Shown here: positions 3,802-17,904 of the stretch, piece by piece
How the letters are laid out: every line of letters begins with the position of its first letter
Numbering within the stretch: the first letter of the stretch is position 1
Source: Lachnospiraceae bacterium
GTDB lineage: Bacteria > Bacillota > Clostridia > Lachnospirales > Lachnospiraceae
NCBI GenBank assembly: GCA_021772075.1
Contig: JAETNQ010000031.1
Span: forward strand, 1 to 48,657
Length of the DNA stretch: 48,657 nt
Direction: 5' to 3'
The notes under the pieces: model-generated
What the model was told of the DNA's origin: nothing
What the model saw: the letters and a program-made list of their open reading frames with translations, nothing else
Databases searched by the model: none
Position numbers and translations under genes: made by a program

Positions 3802-4296
3802 TTATCTCTCCATTTCCTCCGTATCTGCTTCTTCCATCTGAACCGCCAACCGCTCTCCCATTCTTTGCAGTCCTTCGTATATACTCTTTGTTTTCTCATA
3901 AGGTGCTGCATCCAAAAGCAGCTCCGGCTCTCCACTTTCATTCTCCTGTATCTGCACAGAAACCTCTCCACTGGATATGAAGATAGCGTTGCAGGCAATC
4001 TCCATCCACGGATAGGTAAGACGGGACAGTTCATGGGGCGTGGCGGTCGTCCTGCTGTTCCACGAGAAAAGGTTATGTGCCATAGACAAAAGCTGGCTCT
4101 GGTACTCCTCCAGATTTCCTTTACATGACCTTTTGATTTTGTCAAAGGAAATACCATATGGATCCACACATTTTTTTGCTGCCTCAAAAAGCTCCGGTAC
4201 ACTGGATAAAATATAAAAGGCTGCCCGATAGTCAGAATCCAGTTTCTTCCCTTTGGTCAGCCCTACAAGATACTCATATTTTTGTGCATGATTCAT
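3802..4296 (-). CDS. Hypothetical mobile-element protein, 164 aa
   Basis: Unrecognised soluble protein starting MNHAQKYEYLVGLTKGKK. It looks mainly alpha-helical, with an acidic C-terminus (EEADTEEMER). One central segment (SLMAHNLFSWNS-like, then TPHELSRLTYPWMEIACNAIF) could form a small globular domain. The ATG at 4296 is preceded by GAGAG at close range. It lies downstream of the DUF5688 gene (54-base gap) and directly upstream of the 158-aa gene, so all three are likely cotranscribed. Confidence 0.72.
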   Translation of the reverse strand: MNHAQKYEYLVGLTKGKKLDSDYRAAFYILSSVPELFEAAKKCVDPYGISFDKIKRSCKGNLEEYQSQLLSMAHNLFSWNSRTTATPHELSRLTYPWMEIACNAIFISSGEVSVQIQENESGEPELLLDAAPYEKTKSIYEGLQRMGERLAVQMEEADTEEMER

Positions 4297-8695: not shown

Positions 8696-11600
8696 CTACT
8701 GCACATTTTCTTCAGAATCCTCGCTTTCCGTTTCTTCCTTATATTCCTCCTCTTTCGTGTACTCCGCATCTTCTCCATATGCCTGATATAAGGTAAATCC
8801 CTGTTCCCTGATATTCGTCAACCATTGGTCGAAAAATCCCATCAGTTCCTCTGTCTGCTCCTCTGTTCTGTCACAGGTCTCATAATAGATACCCATGTTA
8901 TCCTGCGTATAGGACAGAGCATAAATACATTGGACCGTCTCATCCATCATGAACGTAATCTCCGGATCACGCATCCTGTCACCATTCTGCGTATAATAGT
9001 GCGCAATACTGTACTCATTCTCCCCAATGGTTTCAAGTACAAGATCGTCAAAACACTCCTGCTTAAATTTCATGTTGGTATAGGTACCCTCAAATAATTC
9101 CGATGCCAGCTTATGCAGTTTCCGGTAAATACTGTTCTCATGGCTTTTTCCCGCTTTTTCTGTTCCTTCCTCATCTACGCCCGCAAATTCCAGTTCCAGA
9201 TTAAGGGACACCTGTTCTTTCAGAAGCTCCGACAGCTTTTCTTCCTCGGAAAAAGGCTTCTCTGCCTGCACTTTTGCCGCTTCATACTGTTCTTTCAGTT
9301 CCACGAGTTTCCGTTCCTCATCCTCCAGATACTGCGGTATCTTTTCTGCAAGGTTCTCAAGTCTTGTGATATTTCCCAGTGCAGATTCACCGGCATCCAC
9401 CTGATAACTGCCCTCCCCTTTCAGGCAGAGCAGTACATCATGGAATGCTCCTCTTTTTAATAATACCTGTAAACCGGCATAGGTTCCGGCCGATACGGTG
9501 TCCCCTGTCTCATGTCCCAGATTTGCCATCTGCATCTTCAGATATTCGCCCGCTTTTGCTCTCTCGTCAAACAGTCTGTGATTTAAGGTAATCGAAAACT
9601 CCTGCGGCTTTTCTTTCTGAAACCGCCCCGCATCGACTCTCCTTTGTTCAATCCGTTCCGTACACCGCTTAATCTCCTGCGGATAATGGACCGTAATCTT
9701 GTTCTGCAAGTCTGTATGCTCGGTTTTCCAAGCCGATTTCAGTGTCTGCAAACGATAGACCTCATTATCCACTTCCATCTTCCTCTTAATCTTGGGATCC
9801 GATACAGCAAGAGCTTTGAACTCAGCATACTGAAGCACCACCTCGTCCACATCCTCGCAGCTCCTTAATGCACTCCTGCCGGTCATGATCTGGCTGATAT
9901 AGCGCTGTTTCTGCTCCAGTATCTGCCAGAGATAAGCATCGAAAGTCTGCTCCGTGATGTAATTAAAGATGGATACCTCGTCATTTTCATTTCCCTGCCG
10001 CAGGATACGCCCATTTCTTTGTGTCAGGTCAGCCGGCCGCCATGGCGCATCCAGATTGTGCAGTGCTACCAATTTATCCTGCACATTTAAACCTGTTCCC
10101 ATCTTCTCCGTGCTTCCCAGCAGTACACGGACAATTCCGTTCCGTACCTTTTCCAGCAGTTCTGCCCGTTTGGTGTCTGTATTGGCGTCATGTATGAAAG
10201 CTATCTCTTTTTCCTCCACTCCAAGCCGCACCAGTTCCTGTCTGATTGCCTGATAGAAATTAAATCTTCCGTCCGCCTTCGGTGTTCCCTTATCGCAGAA
10301 AATGAGCTGTGTAGAATGGTTCTCCTCGGTATTATGATAGATTTCTGCTACACCTCGTGCACAGGTATTAAGTTTGGTGTCCGGATCGTTCTCCAGCGTT
10401 TCATCCAGGATTCTCGGATCCACGGACAGCAGTCTCGCTTCGTTTGTCAGCTTTAGAAAATTATCTTCGCTGCTGTCCACCTCCTTATTTCGGATTGCCT
10501 CTGCACGCTCCACCAGTTCCTCCATGATTGCTTTTTGAGCCGGCGTAATGGATGTCTTTACTACCTGCATCTTTCCTGTTTTCAGTTTCGGAACCGGCAG
10601 TTCCAGCATGTCCGCTGTCTTGATGTCTGCCACTAAAAACAGCATGGACATCAGTTCCGGCAGATTGTGGAACTTGGCAAATCTGGCTTTCATCTGATAG
10701 CCGGAGCCTTCTGGTTTGATTTCCAGCGATGATTCCACCTTGCCGAAAGTGCTTGCCCAAGAATCAAACATGAGAAGTCCCCTGCGCTTTAATTCGGAGG
10801 GCTGCAAGGTCTTTTGCATAACATAGAGTTCCGACATGGAATTAGATACCGGAGTGCCGGTCAGATACACTACGCCGTGTTCATTCGTAATCTCATTGAT
10901 ATACTGGCATTTCATGTGCATATCCATGGCACGCTGGCTGCTCTGTCCTCCCACGCCCGCTACTCTCTGCATTTTGGTGTAACTGTAATTATTCTTATAG
11001 GCATGGGCTTCATCCACAAACAGGTTATCCACGCCCAGTTCCTCAAAAGAAATCGTATCGTCCTTTTTCCCCGCATTGTAAAGTCTGTCAAATCGACCCT
11101 GTAAGTTATGCCTGAATATCTCCATCTGCTTTAAGGTCCATGTTTTACCGGAGATCATTTTCATTTCATCGATCTTCTCTGTAATCTCATCAATTTCTTC
11201 CTGCATGGCGGATAACTGCCGCTCTCTGGAAAGAGAAATCAGTTCAAAAGAACTGTGTCCCATGATGATGCAGTCATAATCCCCGGTGGCAATCCGGCTT
11301 ACAAATCTTCTGCGGTGCTTTTTTTCAAAATCTTTGTTCGTTGCCACTAAGATGTTGGCGTTCGGGTAAAGCCGCATAAACTCTGTCGCCCACTGTTCCA
11401 AGGTATGGTTCGGTACTGCAATCAGCGGCTTGTTGCATACTCCCAGTCGTTTTCTCTCATAAGCAATTGCGCAGGCTGTCATAGTCTTACCGGCTCCTAC
11501 CTCATGCGCCACCAGAAGATTCCCGTCACTGTAAATACCCATGGCTACCGTATCTCGTTGGTGTTTTCGCAGAGTAATGGCGTCATTCATATCCGGCAGC

Positions 11601-14600
11601 ATCAGGTCATCCCCATTGTATGTTCTGGGACGGATGTTGTTGAAGCGGTCGTTATAAAGCTGCGTAAGTGCAGCCCCTCTCTCCGGCTCCGCAAACAGCC
11701 ATGACTCAAACTCCATTTTGATCTGTGCCTGCTTCTCCCTTGCAAGCAGGGTTTCCCGCTTATTCAGCACATACCGCACCTTTTCCTCCCCAGTCTCCGG
11801 GTCCTCGTACTCCTGTCGGTCACGCACTTCCACCGTTTTCAGGTTTAGGGTGTATTCCATGATTTCGTAAGCATTCAGTCGTTCCGTTCCATAAGTGCTG
11901 TTTACTGCAATGGAATCTTTCTCTGCTCCTTTGTTTGTGATAAAAAAGGTTCCAGTATATTCCGCAAACTCAATATGGATACTGCCGTCCCTGTTGTGCT
12001 TGCTCGTTGCAAACTTCTCATACATAAAGTCCTGATAATATTTCACCGGTATCCATGTGGAACCAAGCACGAAACTGATGTCCTCCGGCTTTAACGGTTC
12101 CGGCTGCACCTGTTCTAATGCCTCCACGTTCCGCCCAAACCACTCCGGGTACTCCTCTGCCACCAGGACAGCCTGCGCCAGTTTCTCCTTCACATGACCG
12201 CTCAGATATTCCTCTGCAAGCACCCAGCCGGACGTGGCGTCTCCTTCCTTCCACTTCGCCGGATCCTGATATACACGCTCTCCCAGTTCCTCCAGAATAT
12301 CCTCCTTGCTGCATATCTGGCCGTCCTTGCGGTACAAAAACTGCATATAATCAAGGTCAAATTTTCCCTTGAAATTTAAGGTAATCCGCAGGGCTTCTTC
12401 CACATTGTCAGCCGTTTTCGGCATACTCTTTGGCCGGATTGTGGCTTTCTGGAATACCGCCGTCTTTTTGTACTCGCCTTTTACCTTTTTCCCATGCTCG
12501 TCCTTGACTTCCTCCTCAATGGAACGAAGCAGAGGTGCGTCTGCATCTTTGGAAAATGCCATGACATTCCCCTGCGAATTGAGATACCCATATTTCTTCG
12601 TATAACCGTCATACTCCCGGTTCAGGCGGTCTAACAATTCTTTCAGCCTTTTCTCGTACTCCACAGTGGGCAGCTCCCATCCCAATTCAGAATCGCCGTG
12701 AAGCTGAAAATCCATCAATTCCCGCAAGGCATCCCGGATGCGGAGCATTCCGTCCACCCTCTCTGCCTTCTTCCCCGTCAGCTCCTGACGGTACATACGG
12801 GAATCCTCCCGGTAATAGAAAACGTCCCCCACCTTGGTATAACTGTAATTCTTAACATCCGACGCTGCAGGAAGCCACTCTTTGATAACCGTGTCCTTAT
12901 CGTCCGAAAGTTCGCTTTCCGGTTCCTCATACTGTCCATGGAGCCTGCCGATTGCTTCTTCTAATAGTTCACCCAATTCCCTGTCAGAATAAGGCTTACA
13001 GGTCACAAAATCATGTCTTCCATACATACCGGTTTCCTGTGCCATAGTCCCCAGCACCATCTCCGGGTGGTCAATGAAATAACTGTTGTAGGGAATTCCG
13101 TTTTCATCCCTCTCCACGGAGAGCCACGGCGTATTCCTCTCGTCCGGAATGATTTCCTGTTCCCGCTTTTTCAAAAATAAGATGTCCGTAGTTACATCTG
13201 TTCCCGCTATCTGTCTGAACGCATTTTCCGGCAGGCGGATGGCACCGATCAGTTCCGCCCTCTGTGCAATATATTTGCGCACGGACTGGTTCTCCTTATC
13301 CATGGTAAATTTCGTGGTAATGACTGCAAGGATGCCTCCGCTTCTTACCTTATCCAGACTTTTCGCCAGAAAATAGTCGTGTATCTTGAAGTGATAGCGG
13401 TCATATCGTCTATCACTGACCTTGATACTGTGAAATGGCACATTCCCCACTACCACATCAAAGAAGCTGTCGGAAAACTCTGTGTCCTCGTACCCCTTGA
13501 TAAGAATGTCTGCCTGCGGATATAATTTCCTTGCAATGCCCCCTGCAATGGGTTCCAGTTCCACGCCATAGAGTTTTGACTGGTTCATACTTTCCGGCAA
13601 AGCGGAAAAGAAATTGCCTGTTCCCAGTGCCGGATCCAGAATGTTTCCTGAACGGAAGCCAAACTGGTAAAGGGCCTGATAAATAAACCCGATGACCTTC
13701 TGATCCGTATAATAAGAGGTCAGAGTGGAAGCCGATGCCGACTGCATTTCCTCCTCTGTCAGCAATTCTGAAATCTCACCATATTCCTTTTCCCAGCCTT
13801 CCTTTCCGGGTGTCAGGGCATTGGCAAGCCCGCCCCAGCCAACAAAACGGGCTAAAATAATCTGTTCCTCCGCAGTTGCGATACGGTTCTCCTGCTGTAA
13901 CTGTTTCAGAAGTCTGATTGCTTCCATGTTATTGCGGAACTTTGCTTTAGGGCCGCCCTCGTACAGACAATGCTCCGGCCGATAGTGATAATTCAATGCT
14001 TCCGAAAAATCTCCATCCCCTGTGGCCTGCACAACCGCCTGCGCCTCTTCCCCCTCTAAGTAAAAAGGCTGCAGAAGCTCTGCATTTTCAATCAGAGCCA
14101 CTGGAAGTCTTTCTATGATCTTATAGTCGTGAAGTCCCTGTAGCTGCTCTATATCGCCCAGTTCAACCGTATGGTTATCGTCCAGATACTGAAGCACTTC
14201 AAAAATCCGGTCGTCATACGCAATCCTGCTTCCCACCGGAAACGGCATATATCCTGTCTTTATTTCCTCCGGTTCTGCTTCCTCCGGAAGTATCTGGTCG
14301 CCCCCTTTCCCGTCATCTGCGTAAGGACCGGGATAAAGTTCAAACAGGCTGAGCTGCCCTTCTTCATCTCCTTTTCTGGAACCGGACTGCATATCCTCTA
14401 TCTCATCAGGGATGTTGAAATCGCCAATGGCATCCTCTTCCTCTGAGGGCGACTGAAAAGGTACATACTCGCCGTGTTCCATAAGCGATTCAATCACATA
14501 CGCAATCACATCCCATGACAGCCGCACAAACCCGTCCTCACCGAAAAAGAAGTCTGCCTCATCCTTTCCCGGCATGATGCCATGCGTCCGGTCACTGCTC

Positions 14601-16102
14601 TGCTGAAATCCGTAATCCAGATAAATATCCCGCACAGCGTCCCGTTTCTGTTCCATAGGTGCATCCGTATGAAATATCTGATTGATATGGTCATACAGTT
14701 CCATGGGATAAACGCCGGTATCTGTCAAAAGACTCTGCACAAAAGCCCAGTCCTTATGCTCCCTGATATTCTCTTTTGTCGCTGACTGCGGAATATGAAA
14801 AGAGGAACCCTCTGCGGTATGTTCCGCTTCGGATTCCCCTGATGATTTTTCTGTATTCTTTTTCTCGGGTTCAGACTCTGCTGACAGATTTGCTCCCGGT
14901 GTTACATCTTTTTCCCGTAATGCACCGGCTTCCGCTATCGGAGCTGATACACTACCTCGTGCAGAATGATCTCCTCCGCCTGTCTGGTTATCATCTCCAT
15001 ATGTCCGGCTCTCTCCAGCGTATCCTCGGTCTCCGGCATCGGCTGTGCCTCCAGAAGCTGCTGTATCAGCTTTTCTTTCTTCGCTTCTGCCTCCCCGTCC
15101 ACCCTGGCTATCATCTCGTTTATCTGCCCCAGTGCGATCAGCTCCGACAGTCTCTGCGGGTGCTTTGACTTCATGTAGTCCTTCCACCTTCTCCCGAACA
15201 TCCCTGTCGGTCTTATGTCGTACTCCTTGTTCACGGATATCTGAAGGTTCGGATACAGCATCCCGTCCTCCCCTTTCGTGTATTCCAGTTTCGCTAACGG
15301 TTCCCGGCTCATATCTCTGGCTCCTTTCTTCCTTGATTTCCTCAATCTGTTTATGTATCTCTGACAATACCGGTCTTGCTATGGCACAGGAATAATACCC
15401 AAGTCCCATGAACAGTTCCAGACTCCCAAAATGGCTGATATTCTCAAAGGCTCCTGTCTCCTCAAAAATCTCTGTCCTGATTCTGCATTTCCTGAAAACA
15501 ATGTAAGCTGCACTGTCTGATACAAGTTTTGCAAACTCCGCCTGCACTGCCCCGGCAGGAAGCCCATACAGCACACTGTTCTCATCTTTGACCTCCACAC
15601 GGGAAAGATATTTTTCAAGAAATGCGTCCGCCTGCATACCGGCAAGCTGGCAGAGACAGTTTTCAATGTTATTTTCGTCTGTCCCAAACTGTTTACGGAA
15701 ACGGTCTAAGATTTCCGGTTGATACTGCCTTTCCAAAGACCAGACGGCACTCATGGCTTTCCGAAATCCCTCATAATCTCCACGGGTATCTGCGAGGTCA
15801 AAATAGTAAGCAAGCGTGGCTTTCGGATTGTTCATATCCACAACGCCGATGCCTTTGGAACCAGCCTTCAAATATCTTCCGGTCTGCTTCTCCCAGCCCA
15901 TCTTCGTTGCAAGAAGTCCCGCATCCGGCCTCTGCACATAAATCAGCACGTTCTTGTCAAAGGACATCTTGTAATACTTTGACACACTGGACAAAAGCCC
16001 CATCCACTCTGTCCTGTTCTGTGTCAATGCCTGTACTGACTGACGGTACAGGTCTGCAAGGTAAGTTTCTCTACCCAACCTTTTTCTCCGGATTTTCGCC
16101 AT
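8696..16102 (-). CDS. Giant N6-methylase-like / SNF2-type helicase protein, 2468 aa
   Basis: Multi-domain DNA-processing protein typical of large Clostridia ICEs. Residues 1 to about 230 resemble the ArdC-type N-terminal domain (WEKQTGRYLKAGSKGIGVV). Residues about 260 to 450 are a low-complexity linker rich in G, R, D and E that overlaps a second gene. A methyltransferase fold follows, with DPALGTGNFF near 825 and GNVPFH near 886 in the place of NPPY. The helicase core has AHEVGAGKT (near 1530), DEAH (near 1697) and QRNGRILRQG (near 2030), then a coiled-coil-rich tail with an acidic end. The start ATG at 16102 overlaps the parB end by 32 bases. The methylase may not be catalytic, given the altered motif. 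Proposed roles are DNA handling or anti-restriction. Confidence 0.88.
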   Translation of the reverse strand: MAKIRRKRLGRETYLADLYRQSVQALTQNRTEWMGLLSSVSKYYKMSFDKNVLIYVQRPDAGLLATKMGWEKQTGRYLKAGSKGIGVVDMNNPKATLAYYFDLADTRGDYEGFRKAMSAVWSLERQYQPEILDRFRKQFGTDENNIENCLCQLAGMQADAFLEKYLSRVEVKDENSVLYGLPAGAVQAEFAKLVSDSAAYIVFRKCRIRTEIFEETGAFENISHFGSLELFMGLGYYSCAIARPVLSEIHKQIEEIKEERSQRYEPGTVSETGIHERGGRDAVSEPSDIREQGVRHKTDRDVREKVEGLHEVKAPAETVGADRTGADKRDDSQGGRGGRSEERKADTAASGGTADAGDRGYAGESRTYGDDNQTGGGDHSARGSVSAPIAEAGALREKDVTPGANLSAESEPEKKNTEKSSGESEAEHTAEGSSFHIPQSATKENIREHKDWAFVQSLLTDTGVYPMELYDHINQIFHTDAPMEQKRDAVRDIYLDYGFQQSSDRTHGIMPGKDEADFFFGEDGFVRLSWDVIAYVIESLMEHGEYVPFQSPSEEEDAIGDFNIPDEIEDMQSGSRKGDEEGQLSLFELYPGPYADDGKGGDQILPEEAEPEEIKTGYMPFPVGSRIAYDDRIFEVLQYLDDNHTVELGDIEQLQGLHDYKIIERLPVALIENAELLQPFYLEGEEAQAVVQATGDGDFSEALNYHYRPEHCLYEGGPKAKFRNNMEAIRLLKQLQQENRIATAEEQIILARFVGWGGLANALTPGKEGWEKEYGEISELLTEEEMQSASASTLTSYYTDQKVIGFIYQALYQFGFRSGNILDPALGTGNFFSALPESMNQSKLYGVELEPIAGGIARKLYPQADILIKGYEDTEFSDSFFDVVVGNVPFHSIKVSDRRYDRYHFKIHDYFLAKSLDKVRSGGILAVITTKFTMDKENQSVRKYIAQRAELIGAIRLPENAFRQIAGTDVTTDILFLKKREQEIIPDERNTPWLSVERDENGIPYNSYFIDHPEMVLGTMAQETGMYGRHDFVTCKPYSDRELGELLEEAIGRLHGQYEEPESELSDDKDTVIKEWLPAASDVKNYSYTKVGDVFYYREDSRMYRQELTGKKAERVDGMLRIRDALRELMDFQLHGDSELGWELPTVEYEKRLKELLDRLNREYDGYTKKYGYLNSQGNVMAFSKDADAPLLRSIEEEVKDEHGKKVKGEYKKTAVFQKATIRPKSMPKTADNVEEALRITLNFKGKFDLDYMQFLYRKDGQICSKEDILEELGERVYQDPAKWKEGDATSGWVLAEEYLSGHVKEKLAQAVLVAEEYPEWFGRNVEALEQVQPEPLKPEDISFVLGSTWIPVKYYQDFMYEKFATSKHNRDGSIHIEFAEYTGTFFITNKGAEKDSIAVNSTYGTERLNAYEIMEYTLNLKTVEVRDRQEYEDPETGEEKVRYVLNKRETLLAREKQAQIKMEFESWLFAEPERGAALTQLYNDRFNNIRPRTYNGDDLMLPDMNDAITLRKHQRDTVAMGIYSDGNLLVAHEVGAGKTMTACAIAYERKRLGVCNKPLIAVPNHTLEQWATEFMRLYPNANILVATNKDFEKKHRRRFVSRIATGDYDCIIMGHSSFELISLSRERQLSAMQEEIDEITEKIDEMKMISGKTWTLKQMEIFRHNLQGRFDRLYNAGKKDDTISFEELGVDNLFVDEAHAYKNNYSYTKMQRVAGVGGQSSQRAMDMHMKCQYINEITNEHGVVYLTGTPVSNSMSELYVMQKTLQPSELKRRGLLMFDSWASTFGKVESSLEIKPEGSGYQMKARFAKFHNLPELMSMLFLVADIKTADMLELPVPKLKTGKMQVVKTSITPAQKAIMEELVERAEAIRNKEVDSSEDNFLKLTNEARLLSVDPRILDETLENDPDTKLNTCARGVAEIYHNTEENHSTQLIFCDKGTPKADGRFNFYQAIRQELVRLGVEEKEIAFIHDANTDTKRAELLEKVRNGIVRVLLGSTEKMGTGLNVQDKLVALHNLDAPWRPADLTQRNGRILRQGNENDEVSIFNYITEQTFDAYLWQILEQKQRYISQIMTGRSALRSCEDVDEVVLQYAEFKALAVSDPKIKRKMEVDNEVYRLQTLKSAWKTEHTDLQNKITVHYPQEIKRCTERIEQRRVDAGRFQKEKPQEFSITLNHRLFDERAKAGEYLKMQMANLGHETGDTVSAGTYAGLQVLLKRGAFHDVLLCLKGEGSYQVDAGESALGNITRLENLAEKIPQYLEDEERKLVELKEQYEAAKVQAEKPFSEEEKLSELLKEQVSLNLELEFAGVDEEGTEKAGKSHENSIYRKLHKLASELFEGTYTNMKFKQECFDDLVLETIGENEYSIAHYYTQNGDRMRDPEITFMMDETVQCIYALSYTQDNMGIYYETCDRTEEQTEELMGFFDQWLTNIREQGFTLYQAYGEDAEYTKEEEYKEETESEDSEENVQ
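14935..15312 (-). CDS. tnpV: TnpV-like protein nested in another frame of the giant gene
   Basis: A 125-aa frame inside the giant gene, same strand, shifted by one base. Its sequence matches my memory of the TnpV family (named from Tn4451): a YPNL turn, GMFGRRWKDYMKSKHP, LIALGQINEMI, a VD.EAE helix, and the C-terminal AEEIILHEVVYQ. Length is typical. A strong AAAGGAG lies eight bases before the ATG at 15312, which supports real translation; an upstream ATG at 15345 lacks such a site. In the outer frame this stretch is the low-complexity linker (outer residues about 263 to 389), as expected if the inner frame carries the constraint. The function of TnpV is not known. Confidence 0.72.
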   Translation of the reverse strand: MSREPLAKLEYTKGEDGMLYPNLQISVNKEYDIRPTGMFGRRWKDYMKSKHPQRLSELIALGQINEMIARVDGEAEAKKEKLIQQLLEAQPMPETEDTLERAGHMEMITRQAEEIILHEVVYQLR

Positions 16103-17126
16103 TCTGAGCGAAATAAAACTCCAGTGCCTTTACAATCGTATCCTCGATTTCCTTTCTGCTCTGCTCGCTGCCAAAAAATCTGTTAATGACTGTCTCCTTG
16201 ATTTTGATGGGTCTCGGGCTGCTGCTTCTTGCAGCCTTCGTTTTTTCTCCGGTAATAATCTGCCGCAACAGTTCCTCTGTCAGCTTGCCTTTCTTGGCAT
16301 AGTCATGGATAAGGGTTGATTTTTTGGTATCTATGCGGCAGTTATCATTCACAATCAATTCCGCAATCACAGGCTGCATTTCTTCTTTCACGAATGAAAT
16401 ATCATAGGCTGCTTCAAAGCCAAGTGTCTTTGCGTCCAGACAATCAAGCAGTGGTGTGATTAAAGTTGCTATCCTGAGATACCGCGCAATACGATCTTTG
16501 CTTAATCCATATTCCTCGCTGACGGCTGCCCCTGCATCTGACTTCTTTGGGTTTTCCAACGAAGTCCCATTTTCCCCGATTTCATGCGGGTTTACGAGTT
16601 CTTCAATCTCTTTTATCAGGTCATTTCTCCGCCCTTGGCTTTTGATTGCGTCATAGTGCTGTTTCAGGCAGTATGCCTTTTCAGAAGGGCTTAAATCATC
16701 AAAGGAGCGCTGGCGCAGATTTGTCTCTGTCGCAATCAGAACCGCATCCTCATAGGTCAGATTTTCCTTGATGATGACCGGACCTTTGGTAAGTCCGGCG
16801 ATACTTCCTGCGTTCTGTCTGTTATGTCCGCTTAAAATCGTGTTTTTCCCGTCATGCACCCACACAATAAGCGGTTCTAAAATACCGAACTCACGGATGC
16901 TGTCTACCATGTCCTGAAGCCGTTGTCCGGTATAAAGCTTGAACTTATGATTTGGAAGCGGCTCCATCACGGCAAAGTCCATCTCCGTGATTCCCGTTTC
17001 TCCGTTCTTCTCCTCCGGCTGGCTTAATTCTTCCTTGGTCTTAAAATCAAAGAGGTCGTCCATACCGTCCAGAGACGAATTAAGCAATGTGCTTCTTGCC
17101 GGTATCTTTGGTGTTCTGGTCGCCAT
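16071..17126 (-). CDS. parB: ParB-family partition protein
   Basis: The 351-aa protein has the ParB/Srx CTP-binding core (LYTGQRLQDMVDSIREFGIL, ILSGHNRQNAG at about 97 to 107, ATETNLRQRSFDDLSPSEKA) followed by a helix-turn-helix segment (EEYGLSKDRIARYLRIA) for binding a parS-like site. Together with ParA it would segregate or stabilise the element when it is excised and circular. The ATG at 17126 overlaps the parA end by 47 bases, and its own end overlaps the giant gene by 32 bases, so the three are one operon. The C-terminal part is basic and likely the dimer domain. Confidence 0.88.
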   Translation of the reverse strand: MATRTPKIPARSTLLNSSLDGMDDLFDFKTKEELSQPEEKNGETGITEMDFAVMEPLPNHKFKLYTGQRLQDMVDSIREFGILEPLIVWVHDGKNTILSGHNRQNAGSIAGLTKGPVIIKENLTYEDAVLIATETNLRQRSFDDLSPSEKAYCLKQHYDAIKSQGRRNDLIKEIEELVNPHEIGENGTSLENPKKSDAGAAVSEEYGLSKDRIARYLRIATLITPLLDCLDAKTLGFEAAYDISFVKEEMQPVIAELIVNDNCRIDTKKSTLIHDYAKKGKLTEELLRQIITGEKTKAARSSSPRPIKIKETVINRFFGSEQSRKEIEDTIVKALEFYFAQNGENPEKKVG

Positions 17127-17904
17127 TTCCCATCAACTCCTTTACAAATTTTTCATAGGCTTTCGCCGCCGGATTATCCGGTTCATACTCACAGATCGTC
17201 ATACCATACTCCACAGCCTCCGGCACTTTAATAGACCGGGGAATACTGTTTGTAAAAATACGCACTTTTTCCCCAAGTGCCTGCTGTAACTGTGCTTTCA
17301 CACGCTTTGATACCCTTGTCCGTTCATTATCCATGGTGATAAGGATTCCCTCGATTTCCAATCTGGCATTTGCATGGCTCTTGATTCTGTGGAAGGCCCT
17401 TAAAAACTCTGCCATTCCTTCTACCGCCAGTGTTTCCGACTGTACCGGAATAATCAGGCTATCAGCGCATATCATCACATTTATCATGGCTGTCCCCATC
17501 TTAGGCATCCCGTCAATGAGGATGTAGTCATACTGCTCCTTAATGGTGTCCACAAACTCTTTCAGCTTGTATTCTGCAAAATCAGTATCACACATCAGCT
17601 TGTCAAAGTTATCCAGCTTATTATTCGCCGGAATTAAATCTACCCCTGTCTCCGTCCTTATCATGTAGGACTCCTTGTCCGGCAGTTCCTCATTCATCAC
17701 GATACACTTCAAAATATCATAGATTGTCACGGAAAGCTGCTCCGGTGCGGTCACTCCGCATAGTTTCGTTGTGTGCCTCTGCCCGTCAAAGTCAATCAAT
17801 GCGACCTTACAGCCCTCCTTAGACAGCAGATATGACAGGGTTGTGGCGGTCGTGGTCTTACCTACCCCGCCCTTTCTGTTTACAATTCCTAAAACCTTGC
17901 CCAT
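17080..17904 (-). CDS. parA: ParA/Soj-family partition ATPase
   Basis: Deviant Walker A ATPase: RKGGVGKTTTA at about residues 10 to 20, the switch segment ALIDFDGQRHTTK (with FDGQ instead of the usual DPQ), and a Walker B-like YILIDGMPKMG. At 274 aa the length is normal for the family. Partner of the adjacent ParB; uses ATP-dependent DNA binding to move or position the element. The ATG at 17904 has AAAGGAAG upstream. It is the first gene of the element operon, preceded by a leader with a strong hairpin terminator (18138 to 18179), so expression may be controlled by attenuation. Confidence 0.9.
   Translation of the reverse strand: MGKVLGIVNRKGGVGKTTTATTLSYLLSKEGCKVALIDFDGQRHTTKLCGVTAPEQLSVTIYDILKCIVMNEELPDKESYMIRTETGVDLIPANNKLDNFDKLMCDTDFAEYKLKEFVDTIKEQYDYILIDGMPKMGTAMINVMICADSLIIPVQSETLAVEGMAEFLRAFHRIKSHANARLEIEGILITMDNERTRVSKRVKAQLQQALGEKVRIFTNSIPRSIKVPEAVEYGMTICEYEPDNPAAKAYEKFVKELMGNGDQNTKDTGKKHIA

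Follow-up and report, generated by a model that had tools for sequence, protein, structure and literature searches.

Can one stretch of DNA in what looks like a conjugative element encode two proteins, in two frames of the same strand? The question is raised by contig JAETNQ010000031.1 of a Lachnospiraceae bacterium (assembly GCA_021772075.1), of which positions 1 to 48,657, the whole stretch that was analysed, are here called the window. The window carries a giant methylase/SNF2 helicase gene, and a preliminary description, made from the letters alone, had pointed to a TnpV-like gene overprinted inside it. We find that this same-strand nested tnpV is very probably genuine, with its translation predicted from the start signal. 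The inner open reading frame (ORF) lies wholly within the giant, one base out of phase (+1), and its product of 125 amino acids was rightly assigned to the TnpV family, for which this is the typical length. The Pfam search that had been proposed gave a match to TnpV (PF14198) of 75.5 bits (E 3.9e-21), well above the cut-off of 27, and the alignment covers nearly the full model, positions 2–111 of 111. By this score it is of the same protein family as the TnpV of the Tn4451 type. It also matches PHROG 24764 at 54 bits, the entry of which gives neither a function nor a nesting, and a search of NCBIfam gave no family for the inner protein.

Homologous giants were sought with the N-terminal domain of the giant as query, and TnpV was therefore not selected for in the sample of loci. 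The pooled set consists of 215 loci away from contig edges and with a full N-terminal domain; they are distinct in their DNA, but many are closely related and about 30 are near copies of a single locus, L152. The pool omits N-terminal matches of less than 150 model positions, 8 duplicates, 9 loci cut by a contig end and the viral contigs, and the partial N-terminal matches in the family and phylum samples were mostly outside the fetched set. Of the 215 loci, 209 hold in the +1 phase an inner ORF that is 100 codons or longer, matches a TnpV profile and is spanned by the outer frame. As a control for chance, windows in the remainder of these outer ORFs were scanned for ATG-started ORFs that reach 100 codons; 160 of 2075 windows have one in the same phase and 9 of 2075 in the other phase. 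With 209 of the 215 loci preserving this phase and an open outer frame, the nesting goes beyond what chance would give.

The nesting is more widespread than the preliminary description supposed. In the same-family sample the N-terminal domain was matched in 49 of 150 genomes (TnpV, free and nested together, was matched in 78 of 150), and the fetched regions together with the first loci gave 60 nested tnpV genes, all in phase +1. Four same-family loci (L095–L098) had no match to the first TnpV profile, and three of them (L096–L098) were later shown to hold a divergent form. Three of the four TnpV matches in the window's own genome are nested. The phylum-wide sample had the N-terminal domain in 34 of 398 genomes; where its score was at least 190 bits, all 21 fetched loci carry a nested tnpV, and among seven weaker fetched loci one (L154) has a weak, same-phase TnpV match of 29 bits, whereas the other six do not match the TnpV profile used there. 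Among contigs of named genomes the nested gene was found in 76 of 80, the rest being cut by the contig end (L200, L205) or interrupted in the outer frame (L195 through a stop, L230 with an out-of-phase tnpV). Single streptococcal, Cohnella, Monoglobus and Anaerococcus records also carry it, and Clostridia, Tissierellia and Bacilli are all represented among the named hosts. When plasmid and phage records were searched at the protein level, three giants of 32–41% identity came up (from Virgibacillus, Enterococcus wangshanyuanii and a faecal contig), each holding a TnpV nested in that phase, and nested tnpV is found in three records given as plasmids (L001, L002, L296). It is also present in 11 of 26 viral contigs, a few of which look like the same DNA, most of the others being truncated or matching weakly or in part; a search of viral contigs with the inner protein as query confirmed nothing. 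The nested genes are mostly about 110–150 codons long.

Which of the two frames selection acts on can be read from the codon positions. In this phase the wobble base of the outer frame falls on the second position of an inner codon, and that of the inner frame on the first position of an outer codon. From 149 loci we formed 49 close pairs that share no member, although they are not strictly independent; five loci with identical DNA had been dropped from this set and an open outer frame was required, so openness is measured on the named-genome contigs and the pooled 215 loci instead. Within the overlap, inner positions 1, 2 and 3 have 0.077, 0.054 and 0.154 changes per codon (5155 codons, 49 pairs), and in the N-terminal domain outer positions 1, 2 and 3 have 0.081, 0.055 and 0.249 (11652 codons, 49 pairs). 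The outer wobble base is thus about 4.6 times slower within the overlap (0.054) than in the N-terminal domain (0.249), and once the inner stop is passed its rate rises back to 0.280 (47 pairs). Position 3 of the inner codons changes more than position 2 in 46 of the 49 pairs, with 2 ties. Because the outer wobble base is slowest inside the overlap, the inner frame is, by its substitution pattern, the constrained one and under purifying selection. This comparison of homologous giants, made by codon position in both frames and not as a formal ratio of nonsynonymous to synonymous rates (dN/dS), favours overprinting as had been proposed.

The repetitive G/R/D/E linker of the outer frame had been taken as a by-product of the constrained inner frame, and a comparison of outer and inner residues bears this out. 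Among 64 representatives of the 149 loci, at less than 72% TnpV identity, the mean identity is 38% for the inner protein, 29% for the outer reading and 30% for the third, meaningless frame. In the outer reading of the overlap G, S, E, D and R make up 15.6, 10.5, 10.5, 10.3 and 9.6% of the residues, C, M, W and F are almost absent, and the net charge of the linker is about −10; by composition it is a flexible acidic spacer. The outer frame is, as far as these comparisons tell, also kept open. In free-standing tnpV genes the corresponding frame runs through the whole gene in 0 of 20 cases, and in 0 of 7 that had come up before. When nested TnpV is recoded at random with synonymous codons, the outer frame stays open with a probability of 0.058 when the codon use of the nested genes is applied, and of 0.003 with the codon use of free genes (60 sampled loci).

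A strong purine-rich motif eight bases before the inner ATG was part of the preliminary description, and GAAAGGAG does end 8 nucleotides upstream of it. The inner start was defined as the ATG with the best Shine-Dalgarno (SD) match in a fixed window, and control windows were scored identically. Upstream of the inner ATG, 144 of 149 loci have a match of at least 6 nucleotides, as compared to 70 of 5604 control windows, and so do 206 of 212 loci of the wider set. Very probably, then, about 790 nucleotides into the giant, the conserved SD and ATG would let ribosomes start in the +1 frame and make TnpV, which we infer to be translated from the giant's own message. Selection acts mainly on the inner protein, and the outer reading is kept open and would serve as a flexible acidic spacer that joins the N-terminal domain of the giant to the rest of it.

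The inner protein could instead be made as a frameshift fusion to the N-terminal domain, with the purine-rich GAAAGGAG as stimulator. Such a fusion is possible in many loci, since ahead of the ATG the inner frame stays open over a median of 13 codons, but the SD-to-ATG spacing suits initiation, and in 13 of 212 loci the inner frame is closed by a stop no more than three codons before the ATG, which implies that fusion is not the general route; we regard it as very improbable. Another thought is that TnpV is a real gene at this place and that the giant is an artefact of joining the two genes flanking it. Records from Cohnella (L291) and Monoglobus (L295) list TnpV and not the giant, in a plasmid gene table that is incomplete, and the outer ORFs of L059, L068 and L064 stop 41, 92 and 128 nucleotides after tnpV. 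On the other hand, the outer frame is open across tnpV in all but six of the pooled loci and in none of the 20 free genes, and in L059 the match to the giant resumes about 3 kb further on, as after an insertion, and an artefact of this kind would be most surprising.

Since TnpV also occurs as a free gene of mobile elements, the inner frame might be the decaying relic of a tnpV insertion. A same-phase inner ORF of at least 100 codons is however present in 212 of the 215 loci, the other three are without a stop-broken TnpV in that phase, and inner position 2 is the slowest site, a substitution pattern that already contradicts decay; the probability of a relic appears negligible. The chance ORF, the relic and the artefactual giant were all rejected. 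The preliminary description had named three outcomes that would speak against overprinting: homologous giants lacking an intact inner frame, inner stops at neutral rates, and no Pfam match to TnpV; none of them was what we found.

The nested gene also has a divergent class. In L096, L097, L098 and L152 there is an inner ORF of 137–151 codons in the same phase, despite the lack of a match to the first TnpV profile. A profile comparison of this divergent inner ORF with TnpV gave P 4.4e-5 and a probability of 69%, and the inner protein of L152 scores 25.6 bits against PF14198, just below the cut-off of 27. In the family of L152's genome (G175) the divergent inner ORF and an SD match of at least 7 nucleotides are found in 30 of the 30 best matches, which are near copies at least 95% identical to L152's domain. 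L290 (Streptococcus suis), L297, L298, L302, L303, L305–L307 and L309 score with both TnpV profiles and thus bridge the typical and the divergent form; the Pfam TnpV model gives 54 to 74 bits for those scanned, L290, L298 and L305.

Several observations weigh against a strict nesting rule or bear on selection in the outer frame. The outer residues are hardly conserved beyond the null imposed by the inner frame (24 of 35 pairs above it, mean z 0.64; this test of the linker used 35 of the 49 pairs), and because this similarity is barely above the null, selection on the outer frame is seen for its openness only. L095 and L155, with outer ORFs of 592 and 301 codons, have no TnpV match, and L292, a giant of Enterococcus faecalis with a short linker, has neither an inner ORF nor a TnpV match. 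In L230 the outer frame is broken ahead of a tnpV that is out of phase, and in L195 an outer-frame stop around 8974 precedes an intact, in-phase tnpV. L300, a partial N-terminal match outside the 215, has an outer stop in the N-terminal domain and an intact tnpV; the stops in L195 and L300 may be either a draft-assembly error or a real split. L308 has a same-phase inner ORF of 259 codons without a TnpV match. Also outside the 215 is L153, an ORF of 2354 codons with a partial N-terminal match and no TnpV match. Viral contig L317, with a full domain and an outer ORF of 259 codons, has no tnpV, and neither have the ArdC-like ORFs L325–L335, which match the domain weakly. Because of these exceptions, the nesting rule is limited to giants with a full N-terminal domain and does not extend to all ArdC-like proteins. 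The inner ORF of L308 lies at 1550–2326 of the reverse complement, is preceded by an SD match of 7, matches nothing in Pfam and is possibly an extended TnpV with a longer overlap.

The giants are themselves interrupted in some loci. In L043, L048, L050, L052 and L070 they end at the same helicase motif (TGTP-I/V-SNSM), where a sequence starting GTGCGCCC enters, and Rfam gives a group II intron (RF00029) about 2.4 kb beyond this entry in L048, L050 and L070; the giant gene seems to be a favoured intron target. Two other giants, in L074 (9179–11664) and L004 (6795–9342), end at a shared motif (S/A-PEGYT), where a long ORF of 717 and 730 codons, respectively, begins. This ORF has a serine-recombinase-like motif, by motif pattern only, and a free tnpV follows about 2.2 kb further on. 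The arrangement fits the accessible text of a report on S. suis, the one paper found to contain both TnpV and SNF2, in which mobilizable elements that carry tnpV insert into snf2 (PMC9815147), a situation different from nesting. The outer ORFs of L059, L064 and L068 that end 41–128 nucleotides past the inner stop are 415–421 codons long, and for L064 and L068 the giant of L066 as query gave no match downstream in the fetched stretch.

The surroundings of the giant in the window are summarised in Table 1. Downstream are a DUF3991/Toprim gene, a DUF5688 gene and a MobL relaxase gene, and since these stand together with ParA- and ParB-like genes upstream, the neighbourhood resembles that of a conjugative element. 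From about 18.3 kb onwards the gene content has a chromosomal appearance (subtilase, aminopeptidase, RecQ-like helicase). The methylase and SNF2 domains were found in the window's giant, and an ArdC-like N-terminus is seen via relatives and not in the window member itself: ArdcN (PF08401) matches 10 of 24 aligned relatives of the N-terminal domain, with a best E of 4.2e-5, and the window's own domain has no Pfam match at E≤1.

Table 1. Positions in the window of the giant gene, its parts, the nested tnpV and the partition-like genes.
Feature	Position	Strand	Remark
Outer giant gene, 2468 amino acids: N-terminal region, overprinted linker, methylase, SNF2-type helicase, DUF6908	8696..16102	-	ORF and domain search
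N-terminal domain of the giant (query for homologous giants)	15344..16054	-	
Inner Shine-Dalgarno GAAAGGAG, conserved across loci	15321..15328	-	Ends 8 nucleotides before the inner ATG
Nested tnpV, 125 amino acids and stop, +1 frame relative to the giant, outer residues about 264-389	14935..15312	-	ATG at 15312, stop ends at 14935
Methyltransferase region of the giant, outer residues 821-956	13235..13642	-	Eco57I above cut-off, Methyltransf_25 below
SNF2-related and Helicase_C region of the giant, outer residues 1526-2037	9992..11527	-	Domain search
ParB-like gene directly upstream of the giant, overlaps the giant's start by 32 nucleotides	16071..17126	-	
ParA-like gene upstream of ParB	17080..17904	-	

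A full-text literature search, with subscription papers mostly outside it, gave no report of TnpV nested or overprinted in such giants. What is new is a conserved gene nested in giants of conjugative elements, in one phase and over a wide host range; same-strand nesting itself is known. In Bacillus subtilis, comS encodes a small protein in another frame inside the giant gene srfAB, but it is a short gene of one group, and nested tnpV is longer and widespread. Phage Rz1 within Rz, and E within D of phiX174, are likewise same-strand nested genes with their own start, although they are phage genes of a different function. To our knowledge, nested genes of such length that are conserved this widely are, viruses apart, rare. 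The tnpV of the Tn4451 type is an ordinary separate gene in the accessible parts of the reports on it (PMC9815147, PMC3158075, PMC5633684, PMC10782964), in contrast to the nested gene in a fixed phase described here. DarB-like polyvalent proteins likewise combine a methylase, SNF2 and an ArdC-like part in a conjugative element, and the accessible text on them makes no mention of TnpV or of an overlap (PMC5512222). A mobile-element gene also harbours a nested gene in the case of the antirestriction gene ardD inside tniA of Tn5053 which, by the available part of its description (PMC3533173), is antisense and belongs to one transposon, whereas the tnpV nesting is on the same strand.

Standard annotation programs disallow long overlaps outside viruses, according to the accessible text of PMC8665328. 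In seven plasmid records, the annotations of which come from an incomplete gene table, the giant alone is listed in L001, L002, L290 and L296, TnpV alone in L291 and L295, and neither in L289. As these seven tables never list both, annotation tends to conceal one product or the other. TnpV is listed at 3821–4159 in L291 and at 3821–4153 in L295, and the outer frame is there open for more than 1240 codons to the fetched end.

The identities of the N-terminal domain and of the nested TnpV agree (Mantel r 0.785, P 0.001), which implies that the giant and its nested tnpV have been inherited together. The preliminary description had suggested that TnpV may be tied to the expression of the giant, a suggestion that this comparison covers as far as co-inheritance. 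When the tree is rooted with the divergent nested class, the state nested or free switches at least 8 times, at least 3 of them on well-supported branches, and 27 free TnpVs sit at several places within the nested diversity; free tnpV as one clade was rejected (approximately unbiased test, p 0.011). The simplest reading is that nested came first and free later, repeatedly, with free tnpV in other mobile elements as copies that escaped from the nested state. Both can only be called suggestive, because the tree is built on 119 columns, with 39 open forks, and is weakly resolved. That the nesting is ancestral, with tnpV arising or becoming fixed very early as an overprint in the linker, its phase kept while the elements diverged into those now present in Clostridia, Tissierellia and Bacilli, and several later escapes that gave the free-standing 'transposon-encoded protein' after which the family is named, we hold to be a serious possibility, at slightly less than even odds. 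Among the neighbours of the 20 free tnpV genes there was no common family except one group of 4 related ORFs.

The function of TnpV is approached from its structure and its company. The structure model (predicted local distance difference test 84.6, predicted template modelling score 0.64) has two short strands followed by four helices, and the protein is mildly acidic with a mean net charge of −2.4. Our leading guess, a tentative one, is that TnpV may be a small helical accessory protein which works with the giant transfer or establishment protein or with its DNA; such a role is favoured because TnpV is found in plasmid records and is tied to the giant. It counts against this guess that sequence and fold searches of the PDB with TnpV gave nothing significant (best fold E 1.1), and that 20 of the 20 free tnpV genes are without the giant's N-terminal domain in the fetched stretch, TnpV thus being able to exist unlinked. 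TnpV of Tn4451 has been postulated to act in excision by homology with lambda Xis, as stated in the accessible text of PMC3158075, and free tnpV lies near a serine-recombinase-like ORF, by motif pattern only, in L074, L004 and L081. TnpV might then be a factor for excision or recombination direction, and its nesting would merely couple its expression to the transfer genes. We consider this rather unlikely, as nested tnpV is found in records labelled as plasmids, the transfer of which needs no excision, nested tnpV follows the giant's N-terminal domain in inheritance, and the absent fold match extends to folds of any kind.

Some two hundred loci, together with clean controls in the form of free tnpV genes and of the giants outside the overlap, make this a natural system for the study of two proteins encoded by one DNA. 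The nested state also gives a new handle on TnpV. If the nesting is indeed ancestral, overprinting would here be the nursery of a mobile gene family, and not its end point.

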